Part shown: positions 10,717 to 60,544 of the stretch, piece after piece
Numbering within the stretch: the stretch's first letter is position 1
Layout: each line of letters starts with the position of its first letter
Assembly: GCF_963675165.1 (NCBI RefSeq)
Contig: NC_087377.1
Location: forward strand, 6,899,122-6,963,121
Direction of reading: 5' to 3'
Source of the DNA: Halichondria panicea
Taxonomy: Eukaryota; Porifera; Demospongiae; Suberitida; Halichondriidae
DNA length: 64,000 bases
Program-made: the position numbers and the translations under genes
The notes under the pieces: generated by a model
Databases searched by the model: none
What the model saw: the letters and a program-made list of their open reading frames with translations, nothing else
Told to the model about the DNA's origin: nothing

Positions 10717-13700
10717 TTAGTTTGCACGACTTGTTTTTCCCTGAGGCAACACATCCTCATACTCATGAACTGGCTCAATGCTCTCATATTCTCCCTCTGT
10801 TGTTTCCGGGGCTTGTGAGTCATCGATCCTCTGTCTCCATGGTTTCTTGGTTTGCTCATAGGCAATGTTCCTCTTGAGTACTGGAGCATAAGCTTCATTG
10901 GGCTGCTCAATTCCTGCAAATGTTGACGACCAATCCACTCTTCCATCTGACTCTGGAACCTCAACTGTTGGAGAAAAAAGTGACATTAACAAATTTTAGC
11001 AGGATTTCACCTCACATGTATAAGAGCTTTGTTTTCTCTTCACAATAACCACAGCTACAACGATAGTTACGATGACTACAAGTACCATGGCCACAATGGT
11101 GATACCTTTATAAAAAAAATAAAAAGATACAAACAGCCATGAATTGCCATCATTACCTGCTATTAGTACTATGGGTGATGGAGCTGGAGATTGTGTAGGA
11201 GGAGGACCTGCAAGAGGAAGAATAGAACGCATACAATTCTGAAACTAAGACTAACTCTTGGCTTACTCTCCAATTGACTAATGAAGGATACCTTCCCATC
11301 AAAGATGGTCTCGCCAGAATCACTATTCCAAGTGTAAACTACCACATAAATATCGGAAGTAGCATTAAGAGTGACAACAGTTCTGTCATTAGGTGGTTCA
11401 ATAAAACCAATCATCACCATCGGATCAAGAGAGGTTGGAGAGGTTTTAGACAGAAACAATGCCAGACAACTCTGACCAGAGGTAGTGCAGGTTACTTCAG
11501 CACTTCCATTTGATAGTTTAGCGACAGTAATGCCCTCAGAATTAGGTGGAGAATTTGGTTCAGTGGAAGATTCTGAGGAAATGGGAACCCAATAACATTT
11601 TGAGTTTAAAACAGTTTTGAGCTCATACTATAAAAAACGCACACCACAAAAGAAAGTACATGTACAACACTGACACACTAGTTGACTCACTATTGCTCAA
11701 AAACATAGTTTCATTGTCGGCCGCCACAGATATGGGCATTCTTGGTACACTCATATTGTTGTTCTCAAGATCAAATGCAATCACACTGTAATTTCCACTA
11801 ACAGCCACCGGGATGGTAAAATTTTCACTCATACTCCGTCGAATTGGCACTAGTCTCATGCTTAGAAAATCCAACTCTCCAGCAGTGAAACGTATCACAC
11901 AGACAAGAGCTCCGGGAGAGAGGGTACCTTCAACATACTCAATTCTTGCACAGTTTCCTTCAGGGCAAACGTCCACAATCAAATTTTGAACATCAGTTGT
12001 TCCTGTGCAAAACGTTAAAATCAGTATGTAATACTTCTACTAAATGAAAGCACCGCGGGTGCTGATGCCTCGGTGGAGGTACCAAAGCTACATAACATAA
12101 AGCTACTATAGCTAGCTTTTATACACACATTGATTATATAATTATCATGATGAACATTTTTACATGCAGAATCCAGAATCACAGGGAAACTCAAAGAGTG
12201 GGTCGATGATTGTTGTTAATAACGATCGACGCCAAAAGTTCAAGTCTATTATGGCTGCAAGTCAGCAGAGCCTTGCAGCTCTCTTCTCACTCTTGCAGCT
12301 ATCAATAGCTAGCGTTCTAGTGCAGAGCTAACTACTAAGTGGAGTAGCAACACTCGGTGAACAAGTTTTGCTAGGGACTCTTCTGAAAAGGCTGCAATGG
12401 CATTCCAAGTAAGCAAAACTAGGCATAACTCGAGAACGAAGCTTTATTTTGCAAATCCACAAATACCAAGCCAAGAAAACATGACTAGAAGCCTATAGAA
12501 ACTCTTACTTGCACTTCATTGATCCTTGAGCAGCTGAAACAGTCTACACACGCACACACACACACACAAACACACTACCGTATACCTCGCTTGCGCATGC
12601 GCACCGAGGCATAATACACGACTTACTGATTAGCATGTCCTTGAATATGAGGTGCACCCCCGTGATCGAAGTAAGTGTCACGGAAATGTTGATTATCTGG
12701 TCAGTTGGAAGAGAGAAATTTATCATTTGGGGGTCTCTGATGGTCTTATTGATGGGTGCCAATACGTCAGTGTTCACTTGGTAGGAGGTGAAGTTGGTAC
12801 AGTTGGGTACCTAAGAGGTGCGCTGAATAAACGGTTTTTACAGTCACTACGTATATATATCTTACCATACCACCGAGATGTACTATTTTCCTCAACACAT
12901 TTCCTCCCTGACTGATGAGGGGAGCGACATTGTTATTATCTGTGGTAATTTTCAAGTATAAAACGTTCAATAAAACATTTACAGTACCTGTTACTCGTGT
13001 AAAGAACCCAGTGACAGGTTCACTGGATCTTCCTTCCATTCCTGACTCACTAATTGGAGTCACAGTGAAGGTGAATATATCACAGACAGTGTGGTTATCA
13101 GTTTGTCTGTAATTAAACTGCACTTGATTTTGTACACCATTTAGAGGAGGAAGTGTAACCATCTCATTAGTGCCCAGAGTAGTGAGAGAGATGTCAACAC
13201 GGAAGGTAAGCTTATTCAGAGTGAAGTTATTGATCACAGAGATGGCAAGGTTGGTTTTACCATTAACCACTTCAATAGATACACGCTCTGAGAAAAAAGG
13301 CCTCATTAAAAGCAACCGTGTCAAGGTGTACGCTCTACAAATAATTAAACCACTCACCAACTATCAATGTTGCATTCCTTGATAAGATTCCACCAGTCAC
13401 TGAAACGGCTGCACACTGAATGACACTGTTGTTGAACTGTGAGCTAGCTGGGATGGTCAGCACTGAGGGATGACCTGAAGTGCCTCCAGCTACTCTGATT
13501 TCAGATGAAAAGTTAGGGCTAGTAGACGCTGTGCCATTCACAAACCAAGGATGAGATATTCCTCCAGGAGACAGGCACTCAAACTCTGCCAACAATCCCT
13601 CGGCTTGTACCACTGACTCGGGCTCAATTGAAAAGTTCTGGGCTGTGTACGAAATAAATTTATAAGGGTACTAGGCAGACGGGAAGGCCAATTGAATACA

Positions 13701-16029
13701 CATTTTACTGTATACCACAACCACAAAATTAACAGTAGATGTAAAAATGACATAAAAATTTTAAATGTGCATTATATAGACACGGTCTTTTGCTAGAGGA
13801 TGATGTGTATGTTTTCAGTGTATATTCATGTAAAGTATGTACAATGCTGCATTGCACAATACACCAGTTACAGTTAATTGTTCACATGCATCATATAGAT
13901 TGAAGAGTTAAAGAGATTGGCAACGAAGTAGAGTGGTGCACTTGATGCTTTTTTACATTGAATCTGCGATAGAGCCTTGAAAACTATCTGCGTTACGCTC
14001 TACAAACGAGGCTATTAAGCAAAATGTTGGCCGGGTAACTCCCTAAGTTGAGACATCATCTCTTTCAGCAATTTATAACACGCCTAGTCTGTGAGCCACG
14101 TGTAGTATACTTGCTAATGACTGGCCACATCCAGTAGTTCCTAAGGCTCTAATGGAAATGTGTAAGCGTGCTGTTATAACCGCTACTGTCACAATAGGTA
14201 TATATACCTTAATAGACTGGAAACCACTCCCCTTCTCTCGGGAGAAAGGGACTGGCAAGCTGCCGTGTTGAGAGTTGTCCCAGTGCATGAAGAATGTCAC
14301 GCTCCCACAAGAATCAAATAGTCATGTGCCACCGCCCATGCGCTAACTATTACCGCACAAATGAAAGCACCGCGGGTGCTGATGCCTCGGTGGAGGTGCC
14401 AAAGCTACATAACATAAAGCTACTAATAGCTAGCTTTTATACACACATTGATTATAATTATCATGATGAACATTTTTAATTTTGCTGCAACCAGAATCAC
14501 AGGGAAACTCAAAGAGTGAGCAATGATCGACGATGATCGTTGTTAATAACGATCGATGCCAACAGTTCAAGTCTAAAATTAATGGCTGCAAGTCAGCAGA
14601 GCCTTGCAGCTCTCTTCTCACTCTTGCAGCTACCAATAGCTAGCGTTCTAGTGCAGAGTTAACTACTAAGTAGAGTAGCAACACTCGGTGAACAAGTTTT
14701 GCTACGGACTCTTCTGAAAAGGCTGCAATGGCATTCCAAGTAAGCAAAACTAGACATAACTCGAGAACGAAGCTTTATTTTGCAAATCCACAAATACCAA
14801 GCCAAGAAAACATGACTAGAAGCCTATAGAAACTCTTATTTGCACTTCATTGATCCTTGAGCAGCTGAAACAGTCTACACACACACACACAGACAGACAC
14901 ACACACAAACACACTACCGTATACCTCGCTTGCGCATGCGCACCGAGGCATAAATATTATCAGCCTTGAGTATAAGCAGGAGCCCATAAATATGAGAAGG
15001 AGCGGCTAACTTCAACGTACACTCGAGGATCACATCTCGTAATTGCCGGTGAAACCACACTTCCTTGTATGGAAGTGACTAAGTGCTTGCAAACCGCATC
15101 CCTGCATTGCGTATAACACGTGTAGGGATTCAACCACTTAGTGACTCTGCATGCATATATGGAAATGCGGTCATAACCAATTACGAGATGTGATCCTCGT
15201 AGTTAGCCGCTCCTTCTCATATATTTTATGGGCTCCTGGTATAAGTACATCACTGGCGGTCTGTTATCGAGGCTAAAGTGATACACCCACGCATTACGTA
15301 TTTTGTGGTTTGTTCTAATTGCATTCCAACGGGACAACTCTCAACACGGCAGCTTGCCAGTCCCCAGAGCCCAGAGCGAAGGGAGTGGTTTCCAAATATA
15401 AGTGAGTTGCACGGACTGAGCATGTAGTTTATTATGCACTGTGTGTAAAAATATGTATTGTTGTGATGGCATCGATTAAACCGAAGCATAGCGTGGATGT
15501 TACTCGAGGGTACCACTTTCGTTTCCAATCCCTCTAACTCTTCAATTAATTTATGCATGCATCTAACTATCATCTTCTTCTAATTACAGTACCACACACA
15601 TTTTACAGTGGCGCACAATATTCGAGTTTGGCGCTTAGAACATGCATAGTGATAGTAACCGTTCCATGAGGCTATAATGGATTAATTGTACCTGATTGCA
15701 CATGTAGCATTAATCGATTTTCTTACTGCTCAATTGGAGCGCTTCTATATAATAGGGTTGCCAATCTCCGGATAATGTGGTAACATTACATTGAAGGCGT
15801 GGTCGATACGCCCTTGATAGTATGTATTTTATATTTTATTATAACATAACACTATAACCATAAATATACAGAGCAGAAGTACCACCACCATGTGTTTCTG
15901 GACCTGATTGCAAATAGGGACAGCAAGATAATACCTATAGACTATGCATAGCTAACACGTACCTTTTACAGCTATGGTGAATGTTGTCCCCGCAAGCAAA
16001 AGGAATATCAAACTAGTGTAATCATCCAT
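10717..16029 (-). CDS. Receptor A: Ig/FN3-like transmembrane receptor with tyrosine-motif tail
   Basis: Ten exons on the minus strand (5' to 3'): 16029-15963, 13642-13358, 13287-12988, 12939-12866, 12810-12627, 12002-11691, 11572-11267, 11207-11157, 11105-11016 and 10964-10717, giving about 638 residues with consistent phases. Exon 1 encodes a signal peptide (MDDYTSLIFLLLAG). Exon 2 is an Ig domain with the C-W-C pattern (FECLSP, WFVNG, VIQCAA). Exon 3 is FN3-like, ending SSEPVTGFF. Exons 4-7 form further extracellular modules with many N-glycosylation sites and paired cysteines (CTTSGQSC). Exon 8 is a Pro-rich stalk. Exon 9 is a membrane helix ending in VKRKQ. The tail has YAPV, YESI and YEDV motifs. 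Compared with receptor D it ends early: a TAA replaces the TAC of the last YVDI motif. The gene lies head-to-tail with relic B. Ligand and signalling are unknown; the Ig/FN3 assignment is from pattern only. Confidence 0.85.
12046..12613 (+). mobile_element. Dispersed repeat DR1, copy 1, filling intron 5 of receptor A
   Basis: This is a 568 bp non-coding element that starts with GAAAGCACCGCGGGTGCTG and ends with GCACCGAGGCATAA. Its short inverted ends are ATGCCTCGGTG and CACCGAGGCAT. A (CA)n-rich tract lies near the right end. It is almost identical to 14363-14953. The same intron is about 50 bp in receptors D and E, so the element is a later insertion. Confidence 0.85.
14363..14953 (+). mobile_element. 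Dispersed repeat DR1, copy 2
   Basis: A near-identical copy of 12046-12613, with the same GAAAGCACCGCGGG start and GCACCGAGGCATAA end. Small indels separate the copies, mainly in the CA-rich tract. It sits in intron 1 of receptor A. The high similarity suggests recent mobility or gene conversion. Confidence 0.85.
14977..15238. mobile_element. 262 bp MITE with CAGGAGCCCATAAA ends and GTATAAG target duplication
   Basis: The left end CAGGAGCCCATAAA and the right end TTTATGGGCTCCTG are exact inverted repeats. Inverted similarity continues for about 35 bp on each side. The flanks carry an identical 7 bp GTATAAG (14970-14976 and 15239-15245). Long inverted ends with a 7-8 bp duplication fit a hAT- or P-like non-autonomous element. 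There is no ORF. Confidence 0.85.
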
Positions 16030-16339
16030 CAAAGCATAGGTGTGCCAAGCTAGTGTAGTAGATTAATTAATAGCTAGTATGACTGTATATTATATTTAGT
16101 ACAGCTACAATGCACTCACCTATAAATCAGATATAATTACTGAGAATTGTGAGAATGAGTTTCAATATCTAGCTAGGGATGAGGTAAAGATCATAATAAT
16201 AAATCACCAATTTTACAGAATCAATGTTCTATAATTATATATAAATTGTAACTTTCATTTTCAGTTTTGTACAATCAGTTTTGTGCAATCACACAACTGT
16301 GGACAAAATTAGCGTAAAGCGGTATAATAACATAATTAT

Positions 16340-17415
16340 TTTGCACGACTTGTTTTCCCCAAAGCAACACATCCTCGTACTCATGAACTGGCTCAATGCT
16401 CTCATACTGTACCTCTGTTGTTGCCGGGGCTTGTGAGTCATCGATTCTCTGTCTCTGTGGTTTGTTTGTTCGCTCATAGGCAATGTAGTACTGAAGCATA
16501 AGCTTTGTTGGGCTGTCAATTCCTGTAAATGTTGACGATCAATCCATCTAACTCTGGAACCTCACAACTGCATGTCAATTGTTCAAGACCAGTTAACGAA
16601 TGATTTAGGTACCTTTATTTTGTCTCCGTTTTCTTAAAATCACAACAACAGTTCCAACAGCGGTGACTACAAGCAGTAGCAGAATCACCAAACTTAAAAG
16701 ATGTGCATTTTAGCCATACTTTTAGAGGTACCTTAACCAGAATCCTTAACCCAAATCCATTCAATAAACGGTATAAGCTGCTGCTGTGACAGTGGATGGA
16801 GAGACTGATACATCAAGAAACCTAGCTACCAGCAATAATTGATGTTGTTAGGGACTCCATATTAGGAGGAGGTGGGTCTGTTTGTGGATCAGACGTTTGA
16901 GATGTAGTGGGAGCAGCTGCAACAAGAAAAACATTGAATGATGTTAGCTCTGATAATCAATGGAGGCTTACTGGGTAGATCCAGTTGCATAATGAGCGAT
17001 ACCTCCCCTTCAAAGATGGACTTCAAACTATTCCAAGAGTACACCACCACATAGCCATCAATAAAAGTTGAAAGGTGTCATTTAAAGTGATGACAGTTAA
17101 CGTCGACAACGCGTTGATGAAACCAACTACATGTAGTACTCTATCCAAGATGGGAACAAGACTAGACAATTCCGGGCAGAGTCAGAGCAGGTCACTTCAA
17201 CCTCTTTATTTAGTAACTTTCATTCCAAACAACGACAGAGCTTTCAGATGTGTTAGCTCATTTGCCAAATATAATACCTAAAAAATATTTGCTCTCCAGA
17301 TCAAAAGCAATCACTCGGTATATTCTCCACTTAAAACAGGTATGGTGAAATTCTCACTTGAATTCAGAGGGATGGTGATAAGTTTCATGTTACCAAAATC
17401 AAACACTCCATCAAT
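16340..17415 (-). pseudogene. Receptor B: truncated, frameshifted receptor paralogue
   Basis: Read on the minus strand, this holds in order: part of the exon-6 module (about 17415-17290), the exon-7 module (about 17235-16975), a Pro/Thr-rich stalk, a membrane helix ending in ILRKRR (about 16690-16615) and the cytoplasmic tail (about 16560-16340). The tail motifs YESI and YEDV remain, but it is frameshifted near its start. The ectodomain also has frame breaks. The Ig and FN3 exons are missing; homology stops exactly where DR1 copy 3 begins. It is more diverged from A, C, D and E than they are from each other. It lies upstream of receptor A in the same orientation, as expected of an old tandem duplicate. 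Confidence 0.75.
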
Positions 17416-17753
17416 GAAAGCACCGTGGGTGCTAATGCCTCGGTGGAGATGCCAAAGCTATACATAACATTAAAGCTACTAATAGTTTTTATACACACAT
17501 TATATCATCAGGGTTTCATCTGGTGGGGGGGGGGGGGCGGGGGGGGAAGTTTCTCCCCCATAACTCGAGAACAAAGCATTATTTTGCAAATCCACGAATT
17601 AAGATCCAAGAAAACATGACTAGAAGCCAATAAAAACTCTTACTTGCACTTCATTGATCCCCTTGAGCAGCTGTAGCAGTCCACCCACCCACCCACACAC
17701 CCACCCACCCACACACCCACACACACACTCTACCGCATGCGCATTGCGGCATA
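17416..17753 (+). mobile_element. Dispersed repeat DR1, copy 3 (internally deleted)
   Basis: The left end GAAAGCACCGTGGGTGCTAA and the right end (GCGCATTGCGGCATAA) are recognisable. The middle is deleted and replaced by a poly-G stretch near 17525-17545. The insertion cuts the exon-6 module of receptor B. Confidence 0.75.
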
Positions 17754-20673: not shown

Positions 20674-20936
20674 ACTCAGTTATAGGCATGCCCAATAACA
20701 CAGATCATATCTTGAGATGATTGCGATGCAATTTGTAGGAATATACATGTAGTCTCCTAAACAGGTACATGTACATGCTGAACAGGTGGGGAGGTCATGT
20801 GACCTTTGAGGGTGGAGTTACATAATTTGCTCGGGATACTACAGCAGGCCTTTGGGCTTATAATTCCCATAGATACCTCCTAAACAGTATCTAACGAGTT
20901 TAGTTGCTAGGTTCATTTCAAAAACTAACCGAAAGA

Positions 20937-21966
20937 ATGGACGCGGACGAAGACCTAGGCCTAGACAAGCTCTTTTCTGAAGAAGTACTCGGCATAATAA
21001 TGACCGAGCCCATAGACCCCGCCCTCTACGACATAAATGTGGAGGCAGAGCTGGCTACTCTTTCTACAGAACAAAGAAAGGAGGAGGAGCTGGACGAGCC
21101 AACAGAACCTGCACAATCTTCTCTACCTAACTCAAAGCGAATGAAGCTTTCTTCAAGCAGTGCCTCTACCTCCAAGCAAGTAAAGGTCACATGGAAATAT
21201 TATTCCTAATAGCACAACTTCAGATACAAAGTACTGCTTCAAGCTATGGAATGACTGGTGTGAGTACCGATTAAAGTGCCATGGGGATGTTATTCCACTA
21301 TTGAGTGACCTGAAATCCGAGGAACTATCCGAGAACCTGAAATGCTTCATTTTTCAGATTCGGAAGAACAATGGCTCAGAATTTCCCCCTGATACACTGC
21401 ACCACATTGTGAGTGGCATACAGAGGTATTTGTGATGGAATGGAAATCCCGGGATTGACCTGTTCAAGGATGCTTGTTTTGCTGACTTTCGAATGTGCCT
21501 AGACTCCGAAATGAAGCGCTTGCAGAGAGCTGGACTAGGGTCACAAAAGAAGAAGGCTGAACCTCTAACAGAAGAAGAAGAAGAAGTTCTATGGAACAAA
21601 GGTAATCTTGGATGCAAAACTCCACAAGCACTGGTTGATACAGTACTTTTTATGAATGGTGTCTACTTTGCTCTACGAAGTGGTAGCGAACATCGTCAAT
21701 TGAGGTCAGAACCATGCCAAATTGAAGTTGAAGGACAGCGGTCGTATTTGAAATACACAGAAGACATATCTAAAAATCGATCAGGAGGCTTGAAAGGCAG
21801 GAAACTCAAGCCAAAAGTAGTGTCTCACTACAACAATCCACAAACTCACAAACCAACTGCTGTCAATTTATGCCTCCAAACTTTAACCTTTAACTTTAGT
21901 ACCTGCAACGTTACCATCAATCTCTCTATACCTACATCCAACAACCAACGTATTAACAGCGACTGA
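20937..21966 (+). pseudogene. Crypton-type tyrosine recombinase, left-arm copy (C-terminal catalytic region deleted)
   Basis: The ATG at 20937 opens an acidic N terminus (MDADEDLGLDKLF). After a possible short intron or frameshift near 21180-21210 comes a helical DNA-binding-like region (FKLWNDWCEYRLKCHGD, GIQRYL). A TGA at about 21433 then interrupts it. The frame continues with FKDACFADFR, EMKRLQRAGLGSQKKKAEPL and the conserved NGVYFALRSGSEHRQLR block of the Crypton/DUF3504 family. At about 21840 the sequence jumps to the element's 3' region, so the part holding the catalytic Arg-His-Tyr is missing. It is a dead copy. Confidence 0.75.
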
Positions 21967-22539
21967 ACATTATAATTTTATGTCATTACCAAAAACAGAA
22001 CAGTTACTTCTCATTGTTTATAATACAATCTACAAAAAAATGTTTGAAAAACACAAAATAATGAATGGGTTGTTGTGAACATAAAAATTACAGGTTTATA
22101 TGAGAATTTACAGGTTAATATGGGAAATATAAACCCTGTACTGACCAATCAGATTGCTGGATTCTGGGCTACCAGTAACTAAAGTGTATTAGTTACTAGT
22201 AGCCCAGAATCCAGCAATCTGATTGGTCAGTACAGGGTTTATATTTCCCATATTAACCTGTAAATTCTCATATAAACCTGTAATTTTTATGTTCACAACA
22301 ACCATTCATTATCAATTTTTGTGTTTTTCAAACATGTTTTTTGTATATTGTATTATAAAAAACAATGAGAAGTAACTGTTTTGTTTTGGTAATGACAAAA
22401 AATTATAATGTTCAGTCGCTGTTAATACGTTGGTTGTTGGATGTAGGCATAATTATAGAGAGATTGATGGTATAACGTTGCAGGCACTAAAGTTAAAGTT
22501 TGGAGGCATAAATTGACAGCAGTTGGTTTGTGAGTTTTG

Positions 22540-23158
22540 TTGCACTGCCATCTGTGAGTGATCAGTGTGTGCCAGTATGTTAATTGGCTTTACGTTGAGG
22601 ATGTCTGAAACTGACTTCTTTTGACACTCAGAAGTTCTCTTGTAGCTGCGAACTCCTTCCAAGCTTCGGTGTCCAGTTGTTTCCATTATCATTTGTTCGT
22701 CCACTCCAGCGTTGTAGAGTCTAGTAGCAGCAGTTGCACGGAGTATGTATTAGAGGTTCAGCCTTCTTTTGTGACCCTAGTCCAGCTCTCTGCAAGCGCT
22801 TCATTTCGGAGTCTAGGCACACTCGAAAGTCAGCAAAACAAGCATCCTTGAACAGGTAAATCCCGGGATTTCCATTCTAATTATTCACCTTATGCAGATA
22901 TCACTATCCAAACTGTACACTGCACCTGCCGTGATAAGAGGCCTGCAGACACTTTGCTTCATTCGCTTTGAGTTATAGGTAGAGATTGTGCAGGTTCTGT
23001 TGGCTTGTCCAGCTCCTCCTCCTTTCTTTGTTCTGTAGAAAGAGTAGCCAGCTCCGCCTCCACATTTAGAGGGCGGGGTCTATGGGCTCGGTCATTATTA
23101 TACCGAGTACTTCTTCAGAAAAGAGCTTGTCTAGGCCTAGGTCTTTGTCCGCGTCCAT
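22540..23158 (-). pseudogene. Crypton-type tyrosine recombinase, right-arm copy (central region deleted)
   Basis: The minus strand starts with the same N terminus (MDADKDLGLDKLF, ATG near 23158), then loses the central part. It resumes at about 22745 with the C-terminal catalytic region: LRATAATRLYNAG, TTGHRSLEGVRSY, then KRTSECQKKS. The LRATAATRL, GHRS and SY positions fit the second Arg, His and nucleophilic Tyr regions of tyrosine recombinases. Frame breaks show it is not functional. It complements the gap of the left arm. Confidence 0.7.
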
Positions 23159-23508
23159 TCTTTCGGTTAGTTTTTGAAATGAACCTAGCAACTAAACTCG
23201 TTAGATACTGTTTAGTCGGTATCTATGGGAATTATAAGCCCGCAGGCACTCGTAGTACCCTCGCTTCGCTCGGGATACTACAGCAGGCCTTTGGGCTTAT
23301 AATTCCCATAGATACCTCCTAAACAGTATCTAACTATTATATAACAATTGAAAATCGGAAAGCATACAAGTGCAGCCACACCCCAACATTTTTTTGAACT
23401 TTCTTGTGGTGCCTGAAACTTTGTACAGCGTTTGCAGGCATGGAGTTTAATGAAGTTAAATGGAGTTAATGGGGTGGAGTGTAGCCTTCACAATGCGCAT
23501 GCCTAGCA

Positions 23509-28600: not shown

Positions 28601-30290
28601 ACACATTATATATTTCATGATGAGTATTTTGTTTGCCGCATGCAATCGCTAAAAGTGGGAAATGATCGACCATGATTATTATTAACAATCTGCACCTCCT
28701 TCGGTCCATGGCAATGGACAAAACCAATGCACCTTGCACGCACCTCAAGCATCGAGGGGTAGGTTCAGTCCACGCAGACACCTGGTGAACGCATCACCAC
28801 TAATTCCACGCGGACCCTCTCATTTTTATCAGGAAGGCAGGCACTTACTTACACACACTGTAATCATCACACATGGTAATTTTCATGATGAGCATTTTGC
28901 AGCTTGCAAACTCTAAGAGTGGGTAATGATTGACCACGATTATTATTTAAAAACCAAAAGCTCGAGCCCGTGACCAGTAATGGCTTCATCAGTAGAGCTC
29001 TCTTCTCACTCTTGCACCGAGCTATAAGTAGAGTAGAAACACTCCATGGACAAGTTTGCTACGCTAAGGTCCCTGGGGTGGATGCCATATCTACAAATAT
29101 TATTGGTATTAGCTGGAGTCCACGCGGACTCTTGGTGGATATCCTAAGGTCCACGCTCACTACACAATACTCCCATAACCCCCAACGCAATGCTATACCA
29201 GGAGAACATAGATTTCGCATGCTGCTTTCGACAGGCAGCCGATTTGGGCGCTGGACTACGCAAATACATTCAGCACGCAACTTCCTCATGCACTCTTGCA
29301 GCAGCTAGCGTTCTGGTGCAGAGCACTCGTTGAAAAAGTTTTGCTACGGCTCCAATTAAGCAAACTCAGGAACCAAGCATTGTTCACGAGCCAGGAAGGC
29401 GTAGCTGGAGGCGTACGTTGTTGATCCTTGAGCAGCGGTAGCAGTCTGCACAGACACACATACAGAGTACACCGTATACCTCACTTGCGCATGCTCGCCA
29501 CGGTAGTCAACCACTTTATCAGTTTGTCCACCTAAAGCTCGTTCCGACACCACCTGGTGCATTTCCACGCTACACACAACTACACGGACCCGTGGGGGTG
29601 CGCAGCACTCTGTATGGTTCCCAGCGCCACATTTCAGGCAAAGAAATGATAGCTATTCTCATCGCCGCGATACCAACAAAATAAATAATAATAATCGGCA
29701 GGGCCTGTCGATACGGTTTCATTCCGACATTGCAGTCGCACACACCATTTGACCGCAAAAGCTCTCAATCACAAATTGGAAAGGGCATAAAAACGCAATG
29801 GGCACGCTGCAAAACATCCTCCCCAGAACGGCAAATACACTCCTCAAACAGCCTCCCCCATGCGCCATCATATGCACATGCCTTGCCTTAATTCACGCTA
29901 TTGGGTAAAAGGACCATCCCGTCGGAGTCAGCATCATGATGTGTCTGTCCAGCGACAGCAGCAGGCGCGGACTGCAGGTGTTCTCTAAACGAGATTTGTG
30001 CCCCATACTGTAGACCCACTCCTAAATTCATGTGTATGCTTATGTGACTTACATCCATACTTAATCGAGTTACAATAATTTATAGTACTCCTTGGACTCA
30101 GATAAATTTATTCTGGGGCTCGTACCCAGCTACTCACCTAATTTATTCCCTCGTCCTGGGGCTAGGAATTCACAGCTAATGATATTCATTAACCCAAATT
30201 AACCGCTGGGAATTTGCAGCTAATTATATTCATTGACGGCCTCCTCCTTCGAGTTTGAGGTATTACGCTGATTGCCAATCACCGGTTCGA
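25624..30290. repeat. Duplicated segment, copy 1 (about 4.7 kb)
   Basis: It starts with 'gcctcgtgcggag...gctgaaatttgtgtagc' and ends with 'ctgattgccaatcaccggtt'. The same order of blocks recurs at 30361-33773: a GAC-rich tract, 'ctagatccactccgtgggg', the minisatellite array, a DR1-like block, and a tail with 'tactccttggactcagataa'. Copy 1 is longer because it holds more minisatellite units. All open frames inside are repeat-derived. Confidence 0.8.
26180..28830. repeat. Minisatellite array in copy 1
   Basis: More than ten units, about 130-250 bp each, centre on 'cacctggtgaacgcatcacc', 'actaatggtagctagggtc' and 'acacattataattatcatga'. Units differ by indels and by loss of the middle part. Spacing is irregular and there are no unique spacers of constant size, so it is not CRISPR-like. 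Predicted proteins from it (for example SAWTVPTP repeats) are frame artefacts. Confidence 0.85.
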
Positions 30291-47286: not shown

Positions 47287-48484
47287 GCCCTCGATCCCCC
47301 TAATCTCGACCACCTGCTGCTACAAGAGGAGATAATAGGGCTGGGGCTGAAGAATAACAGAATAGCTTCTGGAGCATTCGGGATAATCTACAGAGTGAAT
47401 CAGCAAGACGTACGCTGCAAAGAAACCTCGTCCTCCTGCAAATTCACGTAAACTTACGAATAAAAAAAGACAAATTTCGGACGGTTTTCAACAAGAATGT
47501 TTGGTTTCGAGCACATTAATTGAACCATCCTAACATTGTGAACTTTGTTGGAGTGCATTATGGATGCCATAGAAACGACGTTAGCCTAATCACAGAGCTG
47601 CATGTTGTATTTAGATTTGGCATCGTACATTCAAACACCCTGAAAACATGATGGAACTATTTGCTCAAGTGCGCGTCTTACATGATGTCTCGAATGGTCT
47701 ACAGTATCTTCATAACCCGGCTGACACCAGGAATCATTCATGGGGACCTAACAGCTTCAAACATTATGCTCACAAAACAGCTGACAGCCAAAATCGGAGA
47801 CTTTGGCTTGTTTGGGTACACAGACCCAAACTTCAGTAGCGTCAGAACAATGACGCAAGGGTACCACGAGTATATGCCACCAGAGTGTCAGCCTGTTTTC
47901 ACCACTAAATTGGACATTTTCTCATTTGGTGTTCTCACGATACACACTGTGATTCATGAAATACCTTGGCTGATCTGGGCTGAAGGCTGCTCATGGTCAG
48001 ATGAGAGGAGGAGGGAAGGAAAGATGGAGCTTACGAAACGAGCTGAGCCTATATATAGTATCATGGGTGATGATCACAGTTTTTATCCTCTTGTTGTTCG
48101 CTGTCTCCATGACAGCTATGATCAGAGACCAACAGCAATAGAGTTGATTGACTTCATGTCACAATTGAAGGTATTATTATTGTCTCAGTCATTATCATCT
48201 ATAATCAACAGTAGCTCTACTGTAATTATAAATACCATTGTATACATATAATTTGCATGCAGGTTTGTGAAAGAACAGAACCGAAGATTCCGATCAAGTT
48301 TCGAGTGAGACATCATCAGCTAGGGGATCACAGGATGAATTTAATGCTTCAAGTGAACCAGAGATTGCTGTTCTACCAATATACATCAGTCTGCCAGGAC
48401 GAATTTTGAGAGAAGTACTCAGTTTGTTTACTAGTTTGGGTGGTTTATTTAACTCAACGGAGACCAATGTCGATGAACAATGAT
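47287..48484 (+). pseudogene. Broken protein kinase (tyrosine or tyrosine-kinase-like type)
   Basis: An acceptor at 47286 opens an N-lobe exon: glycine loop IASGAFGIIYRV, then QQDVRCKE with a stop soon after. Further blocks give LNHPNIVNFVGVHYGCHRND and VSLITELHV, with interrupting stops. After a one-base shift near 47705 the C-lobe is open to 48170: GIIHGDLTASNIMLT (catalytic loop, HGD in place of HRD), KIGDFGLFG (DFG), GYHEYMPPE, TKLDIFSFGVL and RCLHDSYDQRPTAIEL. A donor at 48171 and a following Ser/Glu-rich segment ending VDEQ (about 48483) complete it. The aspartates of the catalytic loop and DFG remain, but several breaks make it non-functional as read. It lies between receptors C and D and may be the lost kinase part of a receptor. 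Confidence 0.8.
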
Positions 48485-48964: not shown

Positions 48965-49225
48965 TGTGGTACTGTATACTTGCATGGAACAATACATGGA
49001 GAGTCCATCATCTTTGATGGCCAGGGGGGGTCTTTCATTATTCGACTGCAACTATAGATTCTAGTAAGGTTTTTTTATTTCAAAATTGTCACTTGCTTCT
49101 TTTACTATACCCATAGGAGCTGTCACATTTAGTGGCATGCGCAATCAAATGGAGAGCATTGAGCCAGTTCAGGGAAAAGCAGGTCGTGCAGATTATGTCA
49201 ACACAACTGAAGTTTATGTACCCTA
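48965..49225 (+). pseudogene. Relic of receptor exon 7 and cytoplasmic tail
   Basis: At 48965-49075 a degenerate copy of the end of exon 7 ('catctttgatgg', 'ttcattattcgac', 'agtaagg') is visible. At 49139-49205 a tail fragment encodes MESIEPVQ and GRADYVNTT, related to ESIEPVHQ and RANYVDIN of receptor D. Stalk and membrane exons are missing. It is upstream of receptor D in the same orientation. Confidence 0.6.
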
Positions 49226-49478: not shown

Positions 49479-52400
49479 ATGGGTGATTACACGAGTTTGA
49501 CATTTTCTTTCTTGTTGCTTGGGACATTCACCAAAGCTGTAACAGGTAAATTACAAGTACTATAATATATAATATAGAGCTATGCACAGTCTACAAAATA
49601 TTTTCTTAAGTTGTATATATATACTACTTGAATGGACACACACAATAATTATGTTGACATGCCACTCACTGTCAGAGTGATACCCCTGATTATTGTCACA
49701 ATTTTTCTCCATATCAAAAGTATAGTGCATGATGTACATGCAGGAAAATGGTGTGTATCCTTTCCACTCATTTTTAAGTAGATCATATACATGTACATGA
49801 CAGTAGGTACAGGAAAAGGAATCTAATCGGTGCACGTAACCATTTTATATTTCATGCATTTTATATTTCATGCAGAAGCCTTGACGGCTTAATTTTTGCC
49901 GGGTAACTCGCTTGAAATAAAGTTTTCTCAAGACATTTATCTCGTGCTCTTCTGTGAGCCACGCGTGTGTAGCACTATACTAATGACTGAAAACATACAG
50001 TGAAAGGAGATTATGTTTTAAGATGTATAAGAGTACACTGGCTATACAACTACTATTATTATATACACAAAATCCTGACAATAGTTATTATACGTTAGTT
50101 TGCGCCCGAGGGAATACATACAACTGCACGAGGTAGTACCAAGGGAGTATAAAAGAAGAGAGAGCATGCAACTCCACTATCAGTGCACGTAGCTAGCAGA
50201 GTTCAAACGTGGGCGGAGGAATGTGTGCATTTGCATGAAGTGCTAAAAATAGAAATTTCTATTTTTAGCATTTCATGCACAGTCATGCACATTCATCCGC
50301 CCACGTTTGAACTCTGCTCATATAGGAGTTGCATGCCCTCTCTTCTTTTTTACGCCCTCGGTAGTACAATAACGATACACACACAGATATCCATGGTACA
50401 GGTAATAGTTGTACCATGGATATCAAGGGTGTATTGGATTTGTACTATCGAGGGCAATTCTATGTATTCCCCGAGGGGATACATACAACTGCACGAGGTA
50501 ATACAGTATCCAGTTTGCTTGTAGTTTCTTTTGAAACTTTTATCACCTTTGTACTGTGACGCCCTTGGTATACTGTATAATATTATATAGGTCTATCATG
50601 CACACATGCACAGCCCAGCAGTTTGCAATTGAGCCTGAGTCAGTGGTACAATCCGAGGGATTGTTGGCAGAGTTTGAGTGCCTGTCTCCTGGAATACTAG
50701 CTCATGCTTGGTTTGTGAATGGCATAGCGTCTACAAGTCTTACATCTGAAATCAGAGTAGTTGCAGGAAGTGAAGGTCGTCCCTCAGTGCTGACCATTCC
50801 AGCTAGCTCACAGTACAACAATAGTGTCCTACAGTGTGCAGCAATTTCAGTGAGTGGTGGAGTCTTTTCAAGGAATGCAACATTGATAGTTGGTGAGTGG
50901 TAAATGTACAACGAGTATACCTTGAGTTGCTATGCTTGTTTTCTCAGAGCGTGTATCTATAGAGGTGGTAAATAGTCCAACCAACATTGCGGTTACCGTG
51001 ACGAATAACTTCACTATGAAAACCCTCACCTTCCGTGTGCACATCTCTCTCACTACTCTGGGCACTAATGAGATGGTTGCACTCCCTCCTCTAAATGGTG
51101 GACAAAATCAAGCACGATTTAATTATAGACAACCTGATAACCACACCATCTGTGATATATTCACCTTCACTGTGATTCCATTTAGTGAGTCAGGAATAGA
51201 AGGAAGATCCAGTGAACCAGTCACTGGGTTCTTTACAACAGTATCAGGTACTGTGAATGTTTTTGTTTATTTGCTACAATAACCATGCAAAGGTGGTAAT
51301 GTCACTCCCCTCATCAGTCAGGGAGAAAATGTGTTGAGAAAAATTGTATATATTGGTGGCATGGTAAGATATTGACTGTAAAGAAGCAACTATATTCAGC
51401 ACCTCTCAGGTACCCAACTGTACCAGTTTCACTTCCTACCAAGTTATCTCAGAAATTTTATCAGCACCCATCCGTAAGACCATTGAAGACCCTCTAATGA
51501 TAAATTTCTCTCTTCCCACTGACCAAAGAACCAACATCTGTGTGACACTCACTTCGATTATGGGTGTACATCTCATATTCCAGAACATACCAATTAGTAA
51601 GTCGTGTAGATAAAGTTTATATAGCTAACATGATTTCGATTTCTTTAGTTACAACTGATATTCAAGATTTGATTGTAAACGTTTGCCCTCAAGAAAACTG
51701 TGTTAGTGTGAGCATTGTGTATGTTGAACATACCCTCTCTCCCGGAGCTATGGTTTGTGTGATACGTCTATTATCTGATGTCTCACTGGACTTTACAAGC
51801 ATTAAAATAGAGACGATTCGACGAAATACGAATAACAATTTTACCATCCCTGTGGCTCGCAGTGGATTATACAGAGTGATTGCCTTTGACCTCGAGAACA
51901 ACAACAATATACATGTACCAAGAATACCCATCTCCATAGCAGCCGACAGTGAAACTACGTTTGTAAGCAATAGTAAGTATACTATACTAGACCATGCAGA
52001 GTTGGATTTCATGTGAAAATGTATATATATAGTTACATGCATAACAATATTAGGGTTTACTCAATTTCTCAGAATCTTCCACTGAACCAAATTCTCCACC
52101 TAATTCTGAGGACATCACTGTCACCAGACTACCAAATGGAAGTGCTGAAGTGACTTGCACTATTTCTGACCAGAGTAATTGTCTAGTGTTGGTTCTGTCT
52201 ACAAAATCTCCTACTTCTCTTGATCCGATGGTGGTGATTGGTTTTATTGAACCACCTAATGACAGAACCACTGTCACTCTTAATGCCACTTCCGATGTTT
52301 ATGTTGTAGTATACACCTGGAATAGTGATTCTGATGAGACCATCTTTGATGGACAAGTATCTTTCATTAGCCGACTAGAACAACCAACTAGTAAGGCAGT

Positions 52401-52968
52401 TTCAGAATTGTATATATGCGCTCTATTCTTGCTGTTGCAGGTCCTCCACTTTCACTATCACCTCCAGTTCCAATGCAAAATTTAATAGTACTAACAATAG
52501 CAGGTGAATGATGGCAATTCATGGCTGTTTGTGTATTTTGTCTGTTATAAAGGTATCATAACTGTGGTCGTGGTGCTGCTTCTCCTGGTAGTCACCGTAA
52601 CTATCGTTGTAGCCATGGTTATTGTGAAGAGGAAACAAAGCTGTTCTACATGTAGAGGTGAAATTATTAATAAAAATGGTCATGTTACTTCTTCCATGCA
52701 TGCAGATGAGGTTCCAGAATCAGATGGACGAGTGGATTGGTCATCAACATTTGCAGGAATTGAGCAGCCCAACGAAGCTTATGCTACAGTACTCATGAAA
52801 AACATTGCCTATGAGCAAATAAAGAAACCACGGGGACAGAGGATCGATGACTCACAAGCCCCGGTAGCTGCAGAGGGAGAGTATGAAAGCATTGAGCCAG
52901 TTCATCAGTACGAGGAAGTGTTGCCTCAGGGGAAAGCAAGTCGTGCAAACTACGTGGACATCAACTGA
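49479..52968 (+). CDS. Receptor D: Ig/FN3-like transmembrane receptor with five-tyrosine tail
   Basis: Ten exons: 49479-49545, 50614-50892, 50948-51247, 51293-51363, 51410-51596, 51649-51972, 52073-52390, 52441-52503, 52553-52657 and 52706-52968 (TGA), about 658 residues. Signal peptide MGDYTSLTFSFLLLG, like A. Ig domain with FECLSPG, HAWFVNG and VLQCAA, two residues shorter than in A. FN3-like domain, then modules with CPQENC and SDQSNC cysteine pairs, a Pro stalk, a helix of about 25 residues and VKRKQ. Tail motifs: YATV, IAYEQI (fits the ITIM consensus), YESI, YEEV and a final YVDI. The exon 9 donor could also be at 52651/52652, dropping two codons without changing phase. A hairpin MITE lies in intron 1 and a sister copy lies 330 bp behind the stop. 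No frame breaks, so it is likely functional. Ligand unknown. Confidence 0.88.
50140..50360. mobile_element. Hairpin MITE copy 1 with GTAGTAC target duplication
   Basis: A nearly perfect palindrome centred at about 50255 ('aaaatagaaatttctatttt'). Ends are CAAGGGAGTATAAAAG and CTTTTTTACGCCCTCG. Flanks are identical, GTAGTAC (50133-50139 and 50361-50367). It sits inside another inverted repeat with 'catacaactgcacgaggta' at about 50115 and 50480. It lies in intron 1 of receptor D. Confidence 0.85.
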
Positions 52969-53299
52969 CAAATGTATGGTACCCCACCAAATTCAAAAAT
53001 GTTTACGTGTGTCGCATAATTATAATATTAATTTTATCTGCAGTTATAATTATGTGTGAAACTATTGTACAACAGGAACTCAAAGTTTACATGAGGCGTA
53101 CCACAATTATAGTCTGGAGCACTGCATGTGCCACACAAGCCGGTGTCACAGGACACGGCCTCTCCCGTCCTAAGGATATTTCCTCCTTTGGGAGTTGTCC
53201 TAGGACAAAAGCTCCTACTCCAGGATAAGAGTTTCCCCATGCTGCGGTGGAAGTCCATGCAGTGCATGTCAGAGAGACTATATAGCTACGAAGTAATAA

Positions 53300-53520
53300 C
53301 AAGGGCGTATAAAAGAAGAGAGGGCATGCAACTCCACTATCAGTACACGTAGCTAGCAGAGTTCAAACGTGGGCGGAGGAATGTGTGCATTTGCATGAAG
53401 TGCTAAAAATAGAAATTTCTATTTTTAGCATTTCATGCACAGTCATGCACATTCATCCGCCCACGTTTGAACTTTGCTCATATAGAAGTTGCATGCCCTC
53501 TCTTCTTTTATACGCCCTTG
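53300..53520. mobile_element. Hairpin MITE copy 2 with GTAATAA target duplication
   Basis: Almost identical to 50140-50360, with symmetric CAAGGGCGTATAAAAG ends. Flanks are GTAATAA (53293-53299 and 53521-53527), extendable to GTAATAAC. Separate duplications show an independent insertion. Ends and duplication length suggest a hAT-like origin. Confidence 0.88.
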
Positions 53521-53528
53521 GTAATAAC

Positions 53529-55849: not shown

Positions 55850-56850
55850 TTAAGCCACTATATTCACACATCAACAGCTCAGATCAAACAAAGGCAGAAG
55901 AAAATTCCCGCGGTATTTTAGATGCTACCTATCACATTGCAGGTACGTATGTTTACATAATTATAGATCTATTCTACACTTTTTACCTTATTATACATGT
56001 ATACATGTACAATAATTATAGAAAAGAAAAGGTGTCGTTGTGGTGATTGTGAGGGATGGACTACTGATGACTGCGGACAGTGCCGCTTTTGTAAGGATAA
56101 GCCAAAAAATGGAGGGAAAGGGACTTTAAAACAAAGCTGTTCAAAGAGGAAATGTCTGCTATTGAAATCCATTGGTAAAGCAAATTCAATTGCCATGCTA
56201 CAATGTATCTATCGCCACTAATATTGTTTACAGCATACGTTCACGAACAGTTCCCTGGAAAGGTATGAATAATTAATTATGTCTGGGATAGAATACTGAC
56301 TGTAAATATGTCATTCACATGCAGGTCACTCAAACCAGAGGCATTACCCCTCAAGCTGATGATTTCACTCAACTAAACATGGTGCTTTCAAAACAGGTCA
56401 CTCAAACCAAAGGCATTACCCCTCAAGCTGATGATTTCACTCATCTAAACATGGTGCTTTCAAAACAGGGACGTAAGCTTTATCATGTCGCAGGGGATGG
56501 AAACTGTTTTTTTAGGGCTCTATCTTATATTATACACAAAACTGAGGGTCATCATGCTTCTATTCGAGCAAGTCTTGTACTTTTCACTGAACTAAACACA
56601 TTCGAACAGTACTGCACCACTGAAAGTATGAAGGATCATATCCAGCGCATGAGGCATGAACGGGTGTGGGCTACATAATTAGAAGCATACGTTGCTGCGC
56701 ATCTTGTTTTTGAAGAACAGTGTACATAATATACAGCCAAAAGAGTGGAAATGGTGAACGTTATTGGCAAAAAATCGACCCCCTTCCACCACACACACTA
56801 ACGTCACTTCCAATAGAATACAAGATAGAATTACACCCTTTTATGGCTCA
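55850..56850 (+). pseudogene. CXXC zinc finger plus OTU protease-like gene, broken
   Basis: A possible first exon ends at 55942 (ILDATYHIA). The exon 56022-56174 encodes a CXXC zinc finger: CRCGDCEGWTTDDCGQCRFC, KDKPKNGGKG, SCSKRKC. CXXC fingers bind CpG DNA. A small exon 56234-56262 follows. The exon from 56325 holds a 24-residue segment encoded twice, then the OTU start GRKLYHVAGDGNCFFRALSY with the catalytic Asp-Cys pair, and continues to RHERVWAT. A TAA at 56676 then stops it. Beyond the stop the family resemblance continues (LEAYVAAHL; HLELCDMPY near 56855, where the catalytic His region is expected) in shifted frames. It may be a transposon-borne or lineage-specific gene; as read it is a pseudogene. 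Confidence 0.7.
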
Positions 56851-57858: not shown

Positions 57859-60544
57859 ATGGAGTCGGCAGTAAGGACAACCGTCTTTTGCCTGCTGGTG
57901 CTCACATCTACTGAAGGTATAGATATATAGATCTATATAAATAGTAGTACTAGATCTAATGACTAGTATAGTGTAGGCTACGTATAGATTTAATGTTCAA
58001 GTTGGTCTATGGAGTTGTAAAGTACAAAGTGTGATTACTGTTACCGAGAAAAATGAGAATAGGTGCTCTCTGCTAGATAATCTTCAAGCTGTTCTGTACT
58101 GTTGCTCAGTTTCTTTCCTTGATTCAGATCTCTAGAAGTGTTTCAACCACTTCTTTTATTAATTTTCCAGTATCTGCACTTAGAAAAGAGGGGTGACACT
58201 TTACTTTGGCAGGGATTAACTTATCTATCAATTATGAGTATGTAATTATATCATGATAATTACTCATAATTGATGCACAGCCCAGCAGTTTTCCATTGAG
58301 CCCGAGTCAGTGGTACAAGCTGAGGGATTATTGGCAGAGTTTGAGTGCCTGTCTCCTGGAGCACTAGCTCATGCTTGGTTTGTGAATGGCACAGTGTCTA
58401 CAAGCCTTACGTCTGAAATCAGAGTAGTCACAGTTGAAGCAAGCAAATGTTGTCCTTCAGTGCTGACCATCCCAGCTAGTTCACAGTTCAACAACAGTAT
58501 CGTTCAGTGTGCACCAGTTTCACTGAGTGATGGAGTCTTCTCAAGGAATGCAACATTGATAGTTGGTGAGTGGTATATTTGTAGAGAGTATACCTTGAGT
58601 TGCTAGATTTATTCCGGCTTTTCTCAGAGCGTGTATCTATAGAGGTGGTAAATAGTCCAACCAACATTGCTGTTACTGTGACAAATAACTTCACTACAAA
58701 TAACCTCGCCTTCCGTGTGGACATCTCTCTCACTACCCTGGGAACTAATGAGATGGTTACACTTCCTCCTCTGAATGGTCAGAGTCAAGTGCAATTTAAT
58801 TACAGACAACCTGATAACCACACTGTGTGTGACACATTCACCTTCACTGTAACTCCAATTAGTGAGTCAGGAATGGAAGGCAGATCCAGTGAACCAGTCA
58901 CTTCGTTCTTTACAACAGTAACAGGTACTGTGTAATATTATATTTAACCGCATGTGGTTATTAATTTATGCACAGGTGGTAACGTCACTCCCCTCATCAG
59001 CCAGGGAGGAAATGTGTTGAGAAAAATAGTAAATCTCGGTGGTTTGGTAAGAGACGTATTGACTACAATATTTATTCAGCTCACCTCTTAGGTACCAAAC
59101 TGTACCAACTTCATCTCCTACCAAGTGACCTCTGAAATTTTATCGACACCCATCAATATGACCATGGATGACTCCCAGATGATAAATTTCTCTCTTCTCA
59201 CTGACCAGTTAATCAACATGTCCGTGACACTCCGTTCAATCATGGGTGTACGTCTCATATTCAAAAATATACAAATCAGTAAGTCATGTAATAGTTACGC
59301 TGGTTTTGATTTACAATGTTTCCACAGGAACAACTGATGTTCAAAATTTGATTGTGGACGTTTGCCCTAATAACTGTGCAAGAATTGAATATGTTGAAGG
59401 TACCCTCTCTCCCGGGGCTCTTCTCTGTGTGATACGTATCATTGATGGAGAGTTGGATTTTCCAAGTATGAGATTAGTGCCAATTCGACGGAATATGAGT
59501 GACAATTTTACCATCCCGGTGGCTGTTAGTGGAACTTATAGTGTGGTTGCATTTGACCTTGAGAACAACAATATGAGTGTACCAAGAATGCCCATGTCTG
59601 TGGCGGCTGACGATAAAACTATGTTTTTGAGCAATGGTGAGTCGACCAGTGTGTCAGTCTTGTACATACACATGTATACATGTAACTTTTGATGTGATGT
59701 TGTTATAGTAAGAGCTCGAACTGCATGTGTTAACTAGTTTTTAGGTGTTTTTTTTGTCAGTGTTGTACACGTACCTTCTTTTGTTGTGTGTGTTTTATAG
59801 TATGAGCTCGAACTGTGATAATTAATTGTTGTTGGGTTCCCATTTCCTCAGAATTTTCCACTGAACCAAATTTTCCACTTAATTCTGAGGACATCACTGT
59901 CGCTAAACTATCAAATGGAAGTGCTGAAGTGACCTGCACTACCACTGGCCAGAGTTGTCTGGCGTTGTTTCTATCTAAAACCTCTTCAACCTCTCTTGAT
60001 CCGATGGTGGTGGTTAGTTTTATTGAACCACCTAATGGCAGAACCACTGTCACTCTTAATGCCACTTCCGATGTTTATGTGGTAGTGTACACTTGGAATA
60101 GTGATTCTGGTGAGACTATCTTTGATGGGAAGGTATCCTTCATTAGTCAATTGGAGCTACCAACTAGTAAGCCAAGAGTTAGTTTCAGTTTCAGAATTGT
60201 ATGCCACTCTGTTGCAGGTCCTCCCCCTACACAATCACCTCCTGATACTACTGGATCTCCAGCTCCATCGCCCATACTCATGATAGTACTAATAATAATA
60301 GGAGCAGGTATACGTACGTGTATACGTGTAGTATGATTGCGTTCCATTGCCTATTTGCATGCTAGCTAGCATTATGATAGTTGTGACCTCTCTCTCTGCA
60401 GTCATTGTTCTGGTCATTGCAATTTTCATTGTTGTCGGTATTCTGTATCTGGTGAAGAGATGCAAACGACGAAACTACAAGGTGGTGCATTCCAGCTCCA
60501 ATCATCGTCAATTTGAAAGGTACATGTATATTGGAATGTGCTGA
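57859..60544 (+). CDS. Receptor E: Ig/FN3-like transmembrane receptor with short basic tail
   Basis: Nine exons: 57859-57916, 58281-58565, 58628-58924, 58976-59046, 59092-59278, 59328-59636, 59852-60166, 60218-60307 and 60402-60544 (TGA 60542), about 584 residues. Signal peptide MESAVRTTVFCLLVL, like C. Ig domain with FECLSPG, HAWFVNG and IVQCAP, plus two adjacent cysteines (SKCC) in a loop where the other copies have none. The FN3-like domain is one codon shorter than in C and D. The membrane-proximal module has CTTTGQSC. Pro stalk, then a helix (IFIVVGILYLV) and KRCKRRNYKVV. The tail has no YxxI/V cluster. An AAAG/GT donor at 60519, also present in receptor C, could splice to a further exon (phase 2) that I did not find. 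So the 584-residue form is only one possibility. Confidence 0.82.

Follow-up and report, generated by a model that had tools for sequence, protein, structure and literature searches.

A cluster of Ig/FN3-like receptor genes with shared tail exons in the sponge Halichondria panicea, and its possible role in recognition

Among known recognition systems, the Alr genes of the cnidarian Hydractinia include pseudogenes and recombining copies, and vertebrate paired receptors of different tail classes have homogenised ectodomains. The aggregation factors (AFs) of sponges are secreted proteoglycan core proteins. Here we describe a family of receptor genes with immunoglobulin (Ig)-like and fibronectin type III (FN3)-like ectodomains in the sponge Halichondria panicea, starting from a window of 64,000 nucleotides (C1:6,899,122-6,963,121; positions without a contig name are those of this window). 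Four such genes were modelled in the window, A on the reverse strand and C, D and E on the forward strand, with relics between them. We think it somewhat probable that they belong to a family of recognition receptors, type I membrane proteins with the plan of paired receptors, whose genes recombine and extend over ~0.8 Mb.

One study gives 41 Alr genes for Hydractinia (PMC11999971). A 2025 review attributes tails with tyrosine motifs to the Alr proteins, and describes Botryllus fuhc as a locus of ~800 kb with a fester/FcoR receptor family whose tails also carry tyrosine motifs; it also presents the allorecognition candidates of sponges, cnidarians and ascidians as unrelated and their mechanisms as a mystery (PMC12065747). 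AFs appear in two papers as the earlier candidates for self/non-self recognition in sponges (PMC5450542, PMC12065747). Searches of open-licence literature showed no earlier description of the present receptor family.

Receptor genes of the window and the surrounding cluster

Splice models of A, C, D and E were built with GT-AG junctions. An earlier note, made from the sequence of the window, had proposed four copies with intact ectodomains on one exon plan, and the spliced models agree with this in all four genes: a signal exon is followed by an Ig module (m1), by m2, m3a, m3b, m4 and m5, and by a stalk exon. After the stalk comes a transmembrane (TM) exon in A, D and E, and then a tail exon of the class that we call T1 in A and D. 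The introns are phase 1, except that between m3a and m3b, which is phase 0 in 4/4 genes; the last donor of E is phase 2. Since the modules are mostly bounded by phase-1 introns, exon swaps would preserve the reading frame, such that the modules would behave as frame-neutral cassettes. In a BLAST comparison of the window with itself, the receptor copies are ~75-92% identical in nucleotide sequence, with E values down to 0, far beyond chance.

Gene D has an uninterrupted reading frame of 656 residues, running from the signal peptide as far as the stop, and corresponds to the independent NCBI model LOC135339015 (97% identity over 97% of our model), which is annotated as 'uncharacterized protein'; the NCBI names of the matching proteins give no functional information. 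The NCBI isoform P0001 of gene D begins just upstream of m1, not at the signal exon of our model, and reads through the intron that follows the TM exon, the 3′ end of which we set by comparison with A. The m4 module of D is at most 81% identical in nucleotide sequence to any other compared copy; its m1, m2 and m5 have neighbours at 89-92%.

The window is the edge of a far larger receptor cluster. A whole-genome search with modules of D and E found 146 places for m1 and m2 and 122 for m4 and m5, in which fragments of one exon may count repeatedly. The T1 tail was found at 73 places, 52 of them in C1:6.9-7.75 Mb, 18 in C1:3.43-3.70 Mb, two on C2 and one at C1:8.72 Mb; a second tail class, T2, was found at 26 places and a death-domain-like exon at 11, again with possible repeated counting of fragments. 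Chaining of module matches on C1:6.91-7.94 Mb gave ~72 loci or fragments: by these matches, 38 combine an ectodomain with T1, seven combine an ectodomain with T2 (three of the seven, E among them, also have the death-domain-like exon) and 27 are incomplete. The 45 loci with both ectodomain and tail span C1:6.910-7.702 Mb. The census covered module matches on C1:6.9-7.95 Mb, the underlying searches give lower bounds, and the total of 72 is approximate because chaining merged at least one lone tail with its neighbour. The earlier note had described a clustered family in 50 kb; its copies are confirmed, but they form only the edge of the ~72-locus cluster.

Further clusters were found elsewhere. 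In that at C1:3.43-3.70 Mb the genes are shorter; their m1 modules are Ig-like and their tail is of T1 type (53-67% identity), and we conclude from this tail that the T1 family is wider than the receptor family described here. A third, smaller cluster (C8:4.48-4.54 Mb) contains relatives of the ectodomain modules, of T2 and of the death-domain-like exon (~35-54% identity). Within the C1 cluster, neighbouring genes near 7.356/7.494/7.679 and 7.365/7.503/7.688 Mb recur three times at constant spacing, with match scores that are near-equal across the three repeats and identical for two copies; this threefold repeat may be a recent segmental triplication or reflect uncollapsed haplotypes.

Ectodomain lineages and their tails

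The ectodomain modules fall into two lineages with 36-56% mean identity between them: type I includes those of A, C, D and E, and type II those of P0010, each with further members. We compared proportions of nonsynonymous (pN) and synonymous (pS) differences, leaving out copies with less than 85% module coverage or with an internal stop (X7084 and L7357 for m1; F7016 and O_C2 for m2; F7016 and d7026 for m5; d7026 and A for T1, all for stops), and keeping the mosaic genes X7084 and X7110 out of both groups. Pooled pS between type I and type II ectodomains is 0.53-0.70 over five modules with 30-60 pairs each, which is near synonymous saturation. Nevertheless, T1 and T2 are each found on genes of both types. 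Between the types, T1 has a pN of 0.043 and a pS of 0.112 (14 pairs), the latter no higher than among type I copies of T1 (0.150, 21 pairs). Gene E (type I) differs from the first T2 copy of two type II genes with pS of 0.108 and 0.129 (one copy pair each; T2 copies with less than 60% coverage were left out) and from one type II gene in the death-domain-like exon with a pS of 0.182, whereas the ectodomains of the same gene pairs have pS of 0.46-0.72. Given a tail pS of ~0.11-0.13 against ectodomain pS near saturation, we read these comparisons as indicating that T1 and T2 tail exons have recently been exchanged or homogenised (converted) between old lineages.

Conservation of T1 by purifying selection alone was considered and rejected. 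Synonymous sites are similar as well. In 20/20 pairs the similarity between type I and type II DNA sets in no more than ~10 bases from the T1 exon, and in 9/20 it continues through the 3′ flanking DNA for 190 bases or more (flanks were compared for nine of the 11 regions, with K7223 and O_C2 left out). Moreover, T1 is not mutationally cold, since its mean pS against the C1 cluster near 3.5 Mb is 0.43 (57 pairs), which also counters a reading by purifying selection only.

Exchange appears to have involved the ectodomain as well. Trees of m1, m2, m3 and m4 for ten type I genes reject each other by the approximately unbiased (AU) test at p < 0.05 in 12/12 tests, and in two genes (C1:7.084 and 7.110 Mb) m1 and m2 of type I are followed by m3-m5 modules close to neither lineage. 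We conclude from the module sequences that both ectodomain modules and tails have passed from one paralogue to another.

Within type I, m1 has the highest pN/pS (0.71, codon bootstrap 0.49-1.05), followed by m4 (0.64), m2, m3 and m5 (0.42-0.48) and T1 (0.35). The value for m1 exceeds that of m2, m3 and m5 pooled (m4 lying outside the pool) with a one-sided bootstrap frequency of 0.02, and the nonsynonymous rate exceeds the synonymous rate (dN > dS) in 16 of 66 m1 pairs. As judged from these sequence comparisons, m1 is under relaxed or locally diversifying evolution, which is not proof of positive selection.

These values also bear on the possibility that the array is mostly a product of neutral birth and death, in which duplication, conversion and decay leave little selected diversity and many copies unexpressed. 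The relics and broken copies in the window, the 27/72 loci that are incomplete by module matches and the repeated blocks with identical match scores are all as expected from such a process. However, pooled ectodomain pN/pS within lineages is 0.36-0.79 and that of T1 is 0.35-0.38 (0.67 in the single pair within type II), both indicating constraint; 92 of 100 compared module copies are free of stops, and several NCBI isoforms are predicted for many of these loci. We consider a mostly neutral array quite improbable.

Tails, domains and features of the window

Tyrosine motifs of the YxxPhi form are frequent in the 11 full T1 tails, with a mean of 4.0 compared with 0.82 in shuffled sequences; nine of the tails have five tyrosines and two have four. 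A YxN motif, which is the form preferred by Grb2-SH2, is present in 9/11. T2 is rich in proline and tyrosine, with PPxY and YxxPhi motifs, and matches to the pattern of the immunoreceptor tyrosine-based inhibitory motif (ITIM) occur in the T2 tails of P0016 (two), P0018 (two) and P0007 (one). Some T2 genes end in a putative death-domain-like C-terminus. Gene E probably continues past the window into such a tail rather than ending at 60544: downstream on the same strand lie a T2 exon at window-equivalent position 64281, 281 bases past the window end (83% to the T2 query), and a death-domain-like exon at window-equivalent 66957-67220 (86% identical to that of P0018). No exon joining the phase-2 donor of E at 60519 to T2 in frame was found, and a direct join is out of frame; a small joining exon is presumed because the NCBI models P0007, P0016 and P0018 carry extra residues at the TM-T2 junction.

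From the sequence and a structure model, the ectodomain consists of a distal Ig domain and several beta (FN3-like) modules, accompanied by a signal peptide and a TM helix. The Ig/FN3-like character assigned by the earlier note is supported by structure comparison, which recovers both folds, from a weak model with a mean predicted local distance difference test (pLDDT) score of 54.8. The m1 and m2 sequence of D has no match in PDB, and a profile search of PDB gave a weak match to the Ig domains of MLCK/titin (E 0.014). The top Foldseek matches of the model are the ectodomains of RPTP-sigma, leptin receptor, OSMR and gp130, with E values of 2.4e-11 for leptin receptor and 8.5e-10 for gp130, at TM-scores by query length of only 0.13-0.17. 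These matches, together with a pooled pN/pS below 1, are consistent with an expanded family of cytokine- or adhesion-type receptors, in which an Ig and FN3 stack like that of gp130, leptin receptor or LAR serves development or adhesion, the genes having duplicated in tandem and the tails having been gene-converted. However, TM-scores by query length across the top matches are only 0.11-0.20, no WSXWS motif is present in A, C, D, E or 25/25 database proteins, and Pfam scans of 12 receptor proteins (three window models and nine NCBI models) found no kinase or phosphatase domain. Many copies with relics, and named relatives that are all from H. panicea, would also be unusual for a developmental receptor. 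We consider this reading improbable.

Word-based protein searches, with words taken from the first 500 residues of each query, listed 17, 16 and 12 matches, with candidates capped at 8000 in the first two; all named matches are from H. panicea, and the other three are protein fragments from other public contigs. Two of these fragments, P0019 and P0020, are close to no reference exon, with a best identity per module of 80-86% (86% for m2 of P0020, at gene C, and 86% for m4 of P0019), a hint of variation between individuals or species. Among prokaryote genome contigs and viral contigs there were 31 and 35 pattern matches, none of which was confirmed as a relative.

Coordinates of the receptor genes and relics are given in Table 1. 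The relics reported by the earlier note (B, 34591 and 48965) are real, but B is not a copy of A: its sequence identifies it as a remnant of the second (type II) ectodomain lineage. Module comparison found no other exon of the receptor family near the 34591 signal relic. In gene C, ~1.3 kb of inserted sequence (~39405-40690, by eye) apparently splits the TM and tail region, so C is probably a pseudogene or the source of a truncated protein.

Table 1 Receptor genes and relics of the window (positions in the window)
Feature	Positions	Strand	Basis or remark
Gene A T1 tail exon	10717-10964	-	Premature TAA; last conserved tyrosine lost
Gene A transmembrane exon	11016-11105	-	Gene model
Gene A stalk exon	11157-11207	-	Gene model
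Gene A m5	11267-11572	-	Gene model
Gene A m4	11691-12002	-	Gene model
Gene A m3b	12627-12810	-	Gene model
Gene A m3a	12866-12939	-	Gene model
Gene A m2	12988-13287	-	Gene model
Gene A m1, membrane-distal Ig-like domain	13358-13642	-	Gene model
Gene A exon 1, signal peptide (MDDYTS...)	15963-16029	-	Gene model, GT donor; resembles start of NCBI P0002
Relic B, decayed type II gene (m4, m5, TM, T1 remnants)	16323-17470	-	Sequence comparison
Signal-exon relic resembling that of C	34591-34609 (matched bases only)	+	19/19 bases, E 1.5e-5
Gene C exon 1, signal peptide (MESVAT...)	36575-36659	+	Gene model
Gene C m1 (Ig-like)	36717-37001	+	Gene model
Gene C m2	37064-37363	+	Gene model
Gene C m3a and m3b	37407-37704 (37407-37480, 37533-37704)	+	Gene model
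Gene C m4	38434-38745	+	Gene model
Gene C m5	38854-39168	+	Gene model
Gene C stalk exon	39234-39317	+	Gene model
Gene C TM/tail remnant	40692-40800	+	73% match of 40692-40823 to E 60410-60554
48965 relic: m5 end (by eye) and T1 tail end (49146-49202, E 2.9e-4)	48965-49215	+	
Gene D exon 1, signal peptide (MGDYTS...)	49479-49545	+	Gene model
Gene D m1 (Ig-like; C45, W55, C97)	50614-50892	+	Gene model
Gene D m2	50948-51247	+	Gene model
Gene D m3a and m3b	51293-51596 (51293-51363, 51410-51596)	+	Gene model
Gene D m4, divergent	51649-51972	+	Gene model
Gene D m5	52073-52390	+	Gene model
Gene D stalk (52441-52503) and TM (52553-52651) exons	52441-52651	+	Gene model
Gene D T1 tail exon (YATV, YEQI, YESI, YEEV, YVDI)	52706-52968	+	Gene model
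Gene E exon 1, signal peptide (MESAVR...)	57859-57916	+	Gene model
Gene E m1 (Ig-like)	58281-58565	+	Gene model
Gene E m2	58628-58924	+	Gene model
Gene E m3a and m3b	58976-59278 (58976-59046, 59092-59278)	+	Gene model
Gene E m4	59328-59636	+	Gene model
Gene E m5	59852-60166	+	Gene model
Gene E stalk (60218-60307) and TM/juxtamembrane exon (60402-60519, then GT donor)	60218-60519	+	Gene model

Other sequences lie within and between the receptor genes. Two introns of gene A each hold a copy of one repeat (12042-12614 and 14359-14953, 92% identical). The exons of D from m1 to the tail are flanked by two 95%-identical, palindromic copies of 239 bp that resemble a miniature inverted-repeat transposable element (50128-50366 and 53288-53526); among the best 40 of 285 candidates, this element is present on many contigs. 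An inverted repeat at 20848-23322, with arms 93-96% identical and a DUF3504 reading frame (21436-21966), is possibly a transposon. The block at 25647-33690 is rich in minisatellites and internally duplicated (27836-29731 and 30936-32935, 80% identical), and a reading frame at 56292-56678 contains a 72-bp tandem repeat in frame and matches otubain weakly, below threshold. An apparently separate TKL-like kinase gene (PF07714), with HGD replacing HRD, has exons at 47287-48251 on the forward strand; among the best 150 of 579 candidates, many relatives of this gene are clustered on C17, C10, C3 and C16. A reading of the family as receptor tyrosine kinases, with the kinase exon at 47652-48251 as a tail, was rejected because the nearest relatives of this exon lie in kinase clusters elsewhere (C17 first, then C10, C12, C3, C16 and others).

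Possible roles and comparison with known systems

Several results weigh against the reading of this array as a recombining family of recognition receptors. The case rests on sequence and models from one genome. Monophyly of type II in the T1 tree (15 tails) is not rejected (AU p 0.117); multiple independent T1 exchanges are therefore not demonstrated and, since the constrained tree stands, many independent events are not claimed. Some genes also contain older T2 exons in tandem (E and the second copy in one type II gene differ with a pS of 0.292), and the 28 pairs among eight T2 copies span pS 0.043-0.571. The link of E to T2 rests on order and strand, with the joining exon not found. For the ectodomain, the more conservative Shimodaira-Hasegawa test keeps 4/12 of the conflicting module trees at 0.05, and pooled pN/pS is below 1 in every module with an upper bootstrap bound of 1.05 for m1; this indicates weaker constraint on m1 but does not show positive selection. 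Both structure models are weak, with a mean pLDDT of 54.8 for the one compared above and 44.7 for a second, type II one (P0014). The C-terminal end of P0018 matches PF00531 (Death) at 21.6 bits (E 2.4e-4), below the cut-off of 22.6, and none of four PDB sequence matches of the death-domain-like region is a death domain. Finally, the full T1 tails contain a strict immunoreceptor tyrosine-based activation motif (ITAM) in 0/11, a hemITAM in 0/11 and an ITIM in 1/11 (gene D), and we reject a canonical ITAM or hemITAM tail for T1.

If the family nonetheless serves recognition, the distal Ig domain would bind a variable ligand on a neighbouring (allogeneic sponge) cell or on a microbe. T1 tails might be phosphorylated and recruit SH2 adaptors, and receptors with T2 and the death-domain-like module might lead to killing or NF-kB-type signalling, in which case the balance between the T1 and T2 receptor sets would decide between fusion or tolerance and rejection. 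Recombination at phase-1 cassettes would reshuffle the binding modules while both tail types stayed in supply. Allorecognition is a tentative candidate for this role, to which we give somewhat less than an even chance; the cell-adhesion-type architecture and the resemblance to Alr and fuhc lead us to favour it modestly over microbial recognition.

Conflict between hosts and microbes can likewise give rise to clustered families that recombine. Microbial recognition is a candidate that we rate as fairly unlikely: here, receptors for microbes or symbionts would bind microbial ligands through the distal Ig domain and set tolerance or attack through their tails, with no sponge-sponge role. A large and individually variable repertoire of expressed immune receptors, described for H. 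panicea in one study (PMC8242945), is consistent with this alternative, to which we give the same low rating as to the role itself. However, the 12 receptor proteins have no Pfam match to a microbe-binding domain, and the pooled pN/pS below 1 in all modules counts against it. The present data do not separate microbe recognition from allorecognition.

A more specific version of the allorecognition reading, which we regard as doubtful, is that of a sponge histocompatibility complex of ~0.8 Mb, working as a paired-receptor system in which each of two old Ig/FN3 lineages uses both a phosphotyrosine tail for tolerance and a death-domain tail for killing, and in which exon-bounded recombination would generate individual-specific haplotypes. 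Were this true, it would mean an independent poriferan origin of a tyrosine-tail allorecognition locus, directly coupled to a death module. A located and bounded cluster on a chromosome-scale assembly reduces the search for sponge histocompatibility genes to a linkage test of C1:6.9-7.9 Mb, and the presence of two common tails on two old ectodomain lineages is a clear non-bilaterian case in which frame-neutral exon exchange builds receptor repertoires.

The recognition role inferred by the earlier note is thus far partly supported and its analogy to Alr loci is sensible, but the most telling feature of the system, shared tails on old ectodomain lineages, is not visible in the window. As in Hydractinia, the sponge genes are clustered, single-pass membrane genes of the immunoglobulin superfamily, present in dozens with relics in a non-bilaterian animal, and their tails carry tyrosine motifs. 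They differ from Alr in having an ectodomain of one Ig domain with FN3-like modules, no strict ITAM or hemITAM, and a second tail class with a death-domain-like module at its end. The word-based protein searches found no sequence relationship to Alr. With the fester/FcoR genes of Botryllus fuhc it has in common a receptor family with tyrosine-motif tails at a large locus, although the Botryllus proteins, as described, have canonical ITIM/hemITAM motifs and an Ig/Sushi region, unlike T1 with no hemITAM and an ITIM in 1/11 tails. Unlike AFs, the receptors have a TM exon (A, D and E) and Ig/FN3-like modules, and no Calx-beta or other aggregation-factor domain was found in the 12 receptor proteins by Pfam at E values up to 1. 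Ig-bearing receptor tyrosine kinases are known from sponges (Geodia and others); they resemble the present family in their Ig ectodomain and single membrane pass, but no kinase is present in the 12 Pfam-scanned proteins. Like the vertebrate paired receptors (KIR, LILR, SIRP), the sponge family joins related ectodomains to alternative tails within a single cluster that undergoes gene conversion. To our knowledge, vertebrate paired receptors use no death domains, and the sponge family differs from them further in that its tails are common to two old ectodomain lineages.

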